Part shown: positions 62,795 to 64,000 of the stretch, piece after piece | Numbering within the stretch: the stretch's first letter is position 1 | How the letters are laid out: every line of letters begins with the position of its first letter | From: a virus | Length of the DNA: 64,000 nucleotides | Direction: 5' to 3' (one strand) | IMG/VR virus record: IMGVR_UViG_3300024262_000018 | Location: 1-64,000 of that record | Made by a program: the position numbers and the translations under genes | The notes under the pieces: generated by a model | The model's database searches: none | Told to the model about the DNA's origin: nothing | Seen by the model: the letters and a program-made list of their open reading frames with translations, nothing else

Positions 62795-63142
62795 ATGAAA
62801 ATAAGAAACGGATTTGTCTCAAATAGTAGTAGCGCAAGCTTTTGTATTGTAAAAAGCGACCTAACACCTCTACAGCTTGATATGATCCGTAATGGGGAGA
62901 AATACTTAAATATTATGACAGATGCTCGATATCTTGATTTTTATAATAAAGATGATTATTGGGATATCTGTGAAGATCTTGAAGAAATCAAGGGGCATAC
63001 CACAATAGATAATTTTGATATGCGTAGCTATTTAACCTATATCGGCGTTGAAAGTTCTTATATCAAATGGTTTGATGTTATAGGCACAAATAGATATGGA
63101 GAAGATGCTCTATATAAAAAGGATAATGAAAATGAAGATTAG
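62795..63142 (+). CDS. MKIRNGFVSNSSS-family protein 1
   Basis: AAGGAA precedes the ATG. The first 16 residues (MKIRNGFVSNSSSASF) are nearly identical to those of the next two genes. The remaining 99 residues are unrelated to theirs: acidic, with DARYLDFYNKDDYWDICEDLEEIKGH and SYLTYIGVESSYIKWFDVIG. The peptide motif occurs in many phage proteins of unknown role. Its end overlaps the next start by 11 nt. No membrane segment or signal peptide is visible. Confidence 0.75.
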   Translation: MKIRNGFVSNSSSASFCIVKSDLTPLQLDMIRNGEKYLNIMTDARYLDFYNKDDYWDICEDLEEIKGHTTIDNFDMRSYLTYIGVESSYIKWFDVIGTNRYGEDALYKKDNENED

Positions 63143-63668
63143 GAACGGTTTCGTAAGTAATTCCAGTAGTTCTAGTTTTATTATATCTAGGGATGCGTAT
63201 GATGACATTTTTGAAGTCGCCATAGAAATGATAGGCCAAAGAGAGTGGGCGGGTGACGAAGAATTGATAAAAAAAATAAAAATGGCTAAAGAATCCGGAG
63301 AATATGCTCTTAATGCTCCTTTAGCTTTTGACTCGTGTAATTATAATACTTTTATAATTCAAGAACATGACATAGAGAGCGGAAAAGAAGTTTATCATAT
63401 TACCACTTGTCACAACCATCCATTCGAACTTAGGGGCGAAGTTGGCGGTGGAGGCGGTGAAGATGATGGAGATAATATCTGTGAAAAATATTATTTCTGG
63501 TGGCCAGAATATGATATACTAGCCAAGACCGCTACTCCTAAAGAAATAGAGAATGCTAAAATTTCTAAAGAAAACTACCATTTTTGCGAAAAACATTATT
63601 ATGATTATCTAATGTTAAGAAATAAAAAAATTATTTGCCCCAAATGCGAGCAGGAGAAGAAAAAATGA
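63132..63668 (+). CDS. MKIRNGFVSNSSS-family protein 2
   Basis: The start is the ATG at 63,132, inside the end of gene 1. The 178-aa product begins MKIRNGFVSNSSSSSF. Its body has a possible metal site (HITTCHNHPFEL), a Gly-rich loop (GEVGGGGGEDDGD), a His/Tyr-rich stretch (YHFCEKHYYDY) and a C-terminal CPKCEQ knuckle. The body is unrelated to genes 1 and 3. The end overlaps the start of gene 3 as ATGA. Confidence 0.75.
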   Translation: MKIRNGFVSNSSSSSFIISRDAYDDIFEVAIEMIGQREWAGDEELIKKIKMAKESGEYALNAPLAFDSCNYNTFIIQEHDIESGKEVYHITTCHNHPFELRGEVGGGGGEDDGDNICEKYYFWWPEYDILAKTATPKEIENAKISKENYHFCEKHYYDYLMLRNKKIICPKCEQEKKK

Positions 63669-64000
63669 AAATTAGAAATGGTTTCGTGTCGAACTCAAGC
63701 AGTTCAAGCTTTTGCCTCTATGGAGCTTGCCTCGATAAAGGAGAAATGCTTGAAATTAAATTTAAAGATACAAAAAATAAAGAAGATTACGACGAGTATG
63801 ATGACGACGAAGAGTTCGGTGACAATTGGGAAAGGCTAGAAAAAGCCCTCCATGAATTTAATTTGTCTGGGGAGGGGGACTATGACTGGACGGATATATA
63901 CATAGGAAGAAGTTGGACTAAAATAAAAGATGAAGAAACTGCCAGACAATTTAAAGATAATATAGAAAAAGATATAAAAGCCTTCTTTCACACATATCTA
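63665..64000 (+). CDS. MKIRNGFVSNSSS-family protein 3 (runs off the right edge)
   Basis: The ATG at 63,665 overlaps the previous stop (ATGA). The 112 visible residues begin MKIRNGFVSNSSSSSF and continue with CLYGACLDKGEML, a highly acidic stretch DEYDDDEEFGDNW, and a helical part. The frame is open to the window end. Codons for the shared peptide differ from those in genes 1 and 2, so the peptide is kept by selection on protein. Confidence 0.75.
   Translation, partial: MKIRNGFVSNSSSSSFCLYGACLDKGEMLEIKFKDTKNKEDYDEYDDDEEFGDNWERLEKALHEFNLSGEGDYDWTDIYIGRSWTKIKDEETARQFKDNIEKDIKAFFHTYL

Follow-up and report, generated by a model that had tools for sequence, protein, structure and literature searches.

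We propose that the peptide shared by the beginnings of three tandem genes in a tailed phage is a substrate tag that a radical-SAM enzyme, PHROG 7293, modifies covalently on many unrelated proteins. We think this is probably correct. The tag is conserved while the bodies behind it are unrelated, it is linked in both directions to a single family of radical-SAM enzymes, and these enzymes are akin to peptide maturases. From these observations we infer that the enzyme modifies the tag, and we suggest a target residue, a chemistry and a purpose below. That the PHROG 7293 enzyme is the partner of the tagged proteins is the main new finding. Some of the tagged proteins belong to PHROG 7397 (they match it mostly through the tag) and some of the enzymes belong to PHROG 7293; both families are listed as "unknown function" and no link between the two is listed. 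A literature search, whose coverage was incomplete, did not find a description of the tag peptide or of a phage radical-SAM tag system. If our proposal is true, then it would provide a function for two phage families that are listed as unknown and for many small phage proteins that are so far anonymous. To our knowledge, it is unusual for a radical-SAM enzyme to have dozens of folded protein substrates that share only a tail.

The window that we analyzed is a stretch of 64,000 nucleotides, which corresponds to bases 1-64000 of a tailed-phage record of 113,959 bases. The three genes near its end all begin with MKIRNGFVSNSSS[AS]SF, a 16-residue peptide that differs among them only at residue 14 (A, S, and S, respectively). 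The original prediction described these as tandem genes with a common peptide and unrelated bodies, and this is confirmed: if profiles are built from the bodies only, then the probability of homology between the families is under 1%. The codons for the tag vary among the three copies, including TCN/AGY serine switches, so the tag is conserved at the protein level, as had been claimed. A degenerate motif for the tag is found three times in the window and not at all in 100 dinucleotide shuffles of it. The genes overlap by 11 bases (genes 1 and 2) and by 4 bases (genes 2 and 3), so they look translationally coupled, and the untagged gene just upstream is probably in the same operon. (A family search for the untagged gene found no match at a meaningful score.) The third gene does run past the end of the window, but the additional copies that were anticipated after position 64,000 are not there, as the rest of the record contains no fourth copy of the tag.

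Table. Features of the phage record. The window is bases 1-64000 of the record, so a single numbering applies throughout.
Feature	Start	End	Strand	Description
Terminase-like gene	41143	43050
Untagged gene	62373	62780	+	135 aa; 14 bp upstream of tagged gene 1
Tagged gene 1	62795	63142	+	115 aa; body family with signature TxMDNFDM, 46 aligned members
Tag of gene 1	62795	62842	+	MKIRNGFVSNSSSASF
Tagged gene 2	63132	63668	+	178 aa from the conserved start (a longer ORF from 63096 reflects a mechanical upstream start); CNYDT/CNNH body family, 16 aligned members
Tag of gene 2	63132	63179	+	MKIRNGFVSNSSSSSF
Tagged gene 3	63665	64060	+	131 aa; in the window to 64000; body family among the largest, 49 aligned members
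Tag of gene 3	63665	63712	+	MKIRNGFVSNSSSSSF
vWA, PP2C-like phosphatase and Ser/Thr kinase-like genes	65956	69221		In a row
Helicase-like ORF	71855	76408		1517 aa
Ribonucleotide reductase large subunit	80974	84816		1280 aa
Short radical SAM protein	102672	103382		237 aa; MoaA/QueE-like

Collecting the proteins that bear this motif and comparing their bodies, as the original prediction had proposed, gave 510 distinct tagged proteins with dozens of unrelated body families. They come from phages and, in some cases, from contigs of bacteria or archaea. Scanning for the tag with an ATG-anchored DNA pattern gave at least 119 stretches in viral contigs and 37 in cellular genomes (257 Gb). The viral pattern scan and the enzyme scan use exact degenerate patterns, so these counts are minimum values. 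Prophages, or phage sequence that was misbinned, may be among the cellular contigs with the tag. When we searched with a pattern that lacks the start codon, the tag was at the start of the protein in all 415 of the cases that we checked. In 406 of these, the start codon is exactly five codons before the glycine, and the other nine begin with MAKIR or MTKYR, which is one residue longer.

The consensus of the 510 proteins is M-K-[ITV]-R-x-G-F-V-S-N-S-S-[ST]-[STAC]-S-F, and the next two residues are mostly hydrophobic. Residue 12 never varies, and N10 and S11 almost never do. In an alignment of 94 diverse members, the only invariant columns are M1, N10, S11, and S12. Gly6 may be replaced by S, A, or D; residue 7 may be L or H; and residue 14 is variable. 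Within a locus, the tags are more alike at residues 3, 5, 6, 7, and 9 than when shuffled, but this is also true of synonymous codons, so it is a weak signal of co-evolution. A search of the PDB with the tag found no match.

The bodies are diverse. A first set of 241 bodies formed 67 clusters by phmmer, the largest with 35, 25, 21, 20, and 17 members, and most clusters have just one member per locus. In the three families from the window, nearly all of the invariant columns lie within the tag. For two families, we retrieved members by DNA signatures of the body itself and set aside, by eye, unrelated proteins that share the signature. For the family of gene 1, 40 members are tagged, three carry a variant tag, one has no tag, and two are truncated at the edge of the locus; for a Zn-ribbon-like family, all 29 complete members are tagged. 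The median length of the tagged proteins is 134 aa (most have 60-390 aa). The bodies are highly acidic: their median net charge is -9 per 100 aa, and the background set used for comparison includes spurious ORFs. Comparing 94 representative members to Pfam and NCBIfam gave one good Pfam hit (DUF4325), and the others had weak hits or none.

We examined an AlphaFold2 model of gene 1. The body is alpha/beta and is largely modeled with confidence, and it has no match among PDB folds with E below 0.001. Residues 1-12 are modeled with low confidence (residues 7-11 have pLDDT < 50), and the first strand is at residues 14-19, so in gene 1 the tag is predicted to be a flexible tail that lies ahead of the first strand.

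The evidence for a partner enzyme comes from the neighbors of the tagged genes. We clustered the neighboring ORFs of 190 loci and found one radical SAM family with 84 ORFs in 79 loci, although a few of these are other radical SAM proteins, such as a 237-aa protein in the window's phage. The runner-up family was in 8 loci. The median distance of the radical SAM family from a tagged gene is 56 bp. PHROG 7293 is present in 73 of the 99 distinct viral records that bear the tag (and in RB43 a second time).

We also searched in the reverse direction. Without reference to the tag, we found 61 loci from the enzyme alone, and 56 of these have tagged genes within 10 kb: 48 match the strict motif, three match a relaxed pattern, and five have variant tags (GHVSNSSS, DFVSNSSS) that we read by eye. 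The tagged genes and the enzyme are almost all on one strand. For example, Vibrio phage D479 was found by the enzyme only and then shown to have five tagged genes. Among the five enzyme loci with no tagged gene, two are on short contigs or at the end of a contig. Among INPHARED records, 175 have the RB16-type tagged protein and 172 have the enzyme, and the counts by genus match. In the cellular loci, the enzyme is on the same stretch in 27 of 37 cases and elsewhere in the genome in 6 more, and in Veillonella parvula SKV38 the tagged gene and the enzyme gene are neighbors. Records with the enzyme have more tagged genes (median of 5, versus 2 in records without it; p = 1.2e-4, which is only indicative because the records are not independent of one another by descent and differ in how complete they are). 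Our reading is already open to testing, as tagged genes and enzyme occur together in the E. coli phages RB43, RB16, and Lw1. The two tagged proteins of RB43 are RB43ORF116c and RB43ORF121c, and the enzyme of RB16 is RB16p156 (YP_003858456.1).

PHROG 7293 is absent from 26 of the 99 tag-bearing records, including some of over 200 kb; some of the 26 are clearly fragments and others may not be. The window's own record and a near relative have no PHROG 7293 gene, so either the tagged proteins in the window are orphans or the record, which may be incomplete, lacks the part with the enzyme. The short radical SAM protein in this phage (Table) is a different protein from PHROG 7293 and is 39 kb from the tagged genes. 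It may serve the tags in this phage.

The partner is a radical SAM protein of about 340-370 aa with a SPASM/twitch-type C-terminus. Several members score above the cut-off for the Pfam Radical_SAM domain, and the cysteines of the CX3CX2C-type motif (C57, C65, and C68) are invariant, with a first spacing of CX3C in some members and longer in others. The C-terminal region contains C273-X17-C291 as well as the invariant C248 and C336. The SPASM model of Pfam is above its cut-off in the bacterial enzymes, which additionally carry CX2CX5CX3C, and is close to it in the phage enzymes. As the phage enzymes have four invariant cysteines beyond the SAM cluster motif, their sequences indicate that they likely have one auxiliary cluster. 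In an AlphaFold2 model of the enzyme (pLDDT of 96.8), residues 1-45 form four strands and no helix, with no obvious RiPP recognition element (RRE), which would be a PqqD-like winged helix.

In seven loci (L049, L115, L149, L285, L286, L303, and L304), the radical SAM gene is in two pieces or matches only from around residue 62-68, near CX2C, which suggests inserts such as introns, inteins, or homing endonucleases. In one record for RB43 (NC_007023.1, 92715-93864), the frame looks shifted near the C-terminus as compared to RB16, while in another record for RB43 (HE981739.1) the match is continuous.

In its predicted fold, the enzyme is most similar to SuiB, which modifies SuiA to make streptide. 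Its best fold in the PDB is SuiB with the precursor peptide bound (5v1t, E of 1.2e-10, TM of 0.69 by query), and SuiB is also the best match when its profile is compared to the PDB, followed by SkfB. The next folds are TigE, EpeE, and PqqE. However, identity to EpeE- and TigE-type enzymes is only about 10-14%, so the chemistry cannot be inferred from this likeness. Also, in contrast to SuiB, the phage enzymes have four invariant cysteines besides those of the SAM cluster motif, and the distance from the first to the second cluster cysteine varies. The nearest curated models are those in NCBIfam for mycofactocin MftC, WgkB, GeoRSP, and the radical SAM maturases of tungsten enzymes (with E as low as about 1e-20 for bacterial enzymes), but the scores are far below every equivalog cut-off that we saw, and only the generic SPASM domain model was passed.

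Given these similarities, we suggest that the enzyme would recognize M-K-x-R-x-[G/S/D]-[F/L/H/Y]-V-[S/T]-N-S-S-[S/T]-x-S-F on small, acidic, folded phage proteins. The covalent change would most likely be on a Ser or Asn carbon in the near-invariant V8-S9-N10-S11-S12 core, and candidate chemistries include a crosslink, an epimerization, or an oxidation. The V-S-N-S-S core is the likely site because residue 14 is variable and changes are tolerated at residues 6 and 7. A cyclophane across Phe7-x-Ser9 is disfavored, as L or H can also occupy position 7. The original prediction had considered the serine cluster as a site of modification or of cleavage. The tightly linked radical-SAM enzyme gives indirect support to modification, while cleavage is unsupported.

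The bodies recur across phages, and a given phage usually has a single body of each kind; the modified tail therefore probably confers one common chemical function. The recipients may be proteins that serve in host takeover or as accessories, and the shared function might be docking, arming, protecting, or stabilizing them; the outcome would be a RiPP-like system with folded payloads. The chances seem to us about even that this is a general form of tagging, in which one radical-SAM enzyme remodels a nearly identical Ser/Asn-rich N-terminal tail on an unrelated folded toolkit in large phages and in some bacteria and archaea and so equips every member with the same new functional group, as a regulon of post-translational modification instead of a natural-product pathway.

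We also considered that the peptide is a RiPP leader or product that is modified and then cut off, so that the active product is the peptide or the released body. Arrays of genes that share one N-terminus, next to a SPASM-type radical SAM enzyme, do resemble arrays of RiPP precursors, and as in SuiB-type systems, the maturase gene lies beside genes with a conserved peptide. However, those systems have a short precursor with a leader and a variable core, while here the putative substrates are folded, and the N-terminal tag precedes many unrelated bodies. The bodies are conserved domains in recurrent families and not hypervariable cores, and the most conserved part is the tag. Also, no protease family is linked to the tagged genes. 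We therefore think that this alternative is unlikely.

Another explanation is that the tag is a signal for localization or for packaging into the virion, read by a phage or host factor, and that the radical SAM gene merely travels in the same accessory cassette. The original prediction favored targeting, processing, or export, and a flexible N-terminal tag that is common to unrelated payloads would fit this, as would the match of one of the 94 aligned tagged proteins to a head-tail adaptor (phrog_132, E of 8e-10). The internal proteins of phage T4, for instance, have a capsid-targeting N-terminal sequence, so that a common peptide precedes varied bodies. However, the T4 prohead protease site is [LIA]-x-E, and nearly all of the tags have no Glu in their 16 residues; the link here is to a radical SAM enzyme instead. 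Unlike a type IV prepilin or Sec signal peptide, residues 9-15 are rich in Ser and Asn, no hydrophobic helix is present, and the bodies are acidic. Targeting and export are therefore unsupported as well. We rejected prepilin-like cleavage after Gly6, since this residue is S, A, or D in some members and is not followed by a hydrophobic helix. The link between enzyme and tag is found in enteric, Vibrio, and uncultivated phages as well as in contigs binned to Veillonella, Treponema, and Lokiarchaeota, and a mere hitchhiker would hardly be kept across such diverse phages and contigs, so we consider this explanation to be very unlikely.

The only exception we saw to the lack of a hydrophobic segment is a 691-aa tagged protein from a Dehalococcoidia MAG (L186:2379-4451), in which a hydrophobic stretch and LTLC, resembling a lipobox, come after the tag. 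The radical SAM gene directly adjoins it.

It is also conceivable that a small molecule is the substrate of the enzyme and that the tagged proteins bind the product, or the enzyme itself, through the tail. The small-molecule enzymes BlsE and DesII are among the fold neighbors, and the lack of a visible RRE would fit with this, but the best fold and profile matches are all peptide maturases (SuiB, TigE, SkfB, and PqqE), which makes this highly improbable. Finally, we see almost no chance that the tag is an ordinary first strand of a shared fold whose bodies diverged beyond recognition: the SSF[IV][IV] end of the tag does enter the first strand in the model of gene 1, but residues 1-12 have low confidence there, the bodies have no profile similarity, and they range to Zn-ribbon-like proteins and a 691-aa lipoprotein-like protein. 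The original prediction had named a single fold in all three bodies, with the peptide as an ordinary first strand, as its refutation; body profiles of the three families and the model of gene 1 gave no such result.

We return to the proposed modification of the tag and to the phage record. Soon after the tagged genes is the row of vWA, phosphatase, and kinase genes, which we take to be a TerY-type triad. These are not general neighbors of tagged genes. We rejected them as a conserved partner for phosphorylating the serines, as no such linked family is among the leading neighbors; one vWA family is present in 7 of 190 loci, about 3.5 kb away.

Two other genes in the record may contain inserts. 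The helicase-like ORF has an internal segment that ends with ...HNYISDNLICHNT and, judged by eye, appears to contain an intein. In the large subunit of ribonucleotide reductase, the profile matches are split (at 44-335 and 739-1279), which suggests an intein or another insert.
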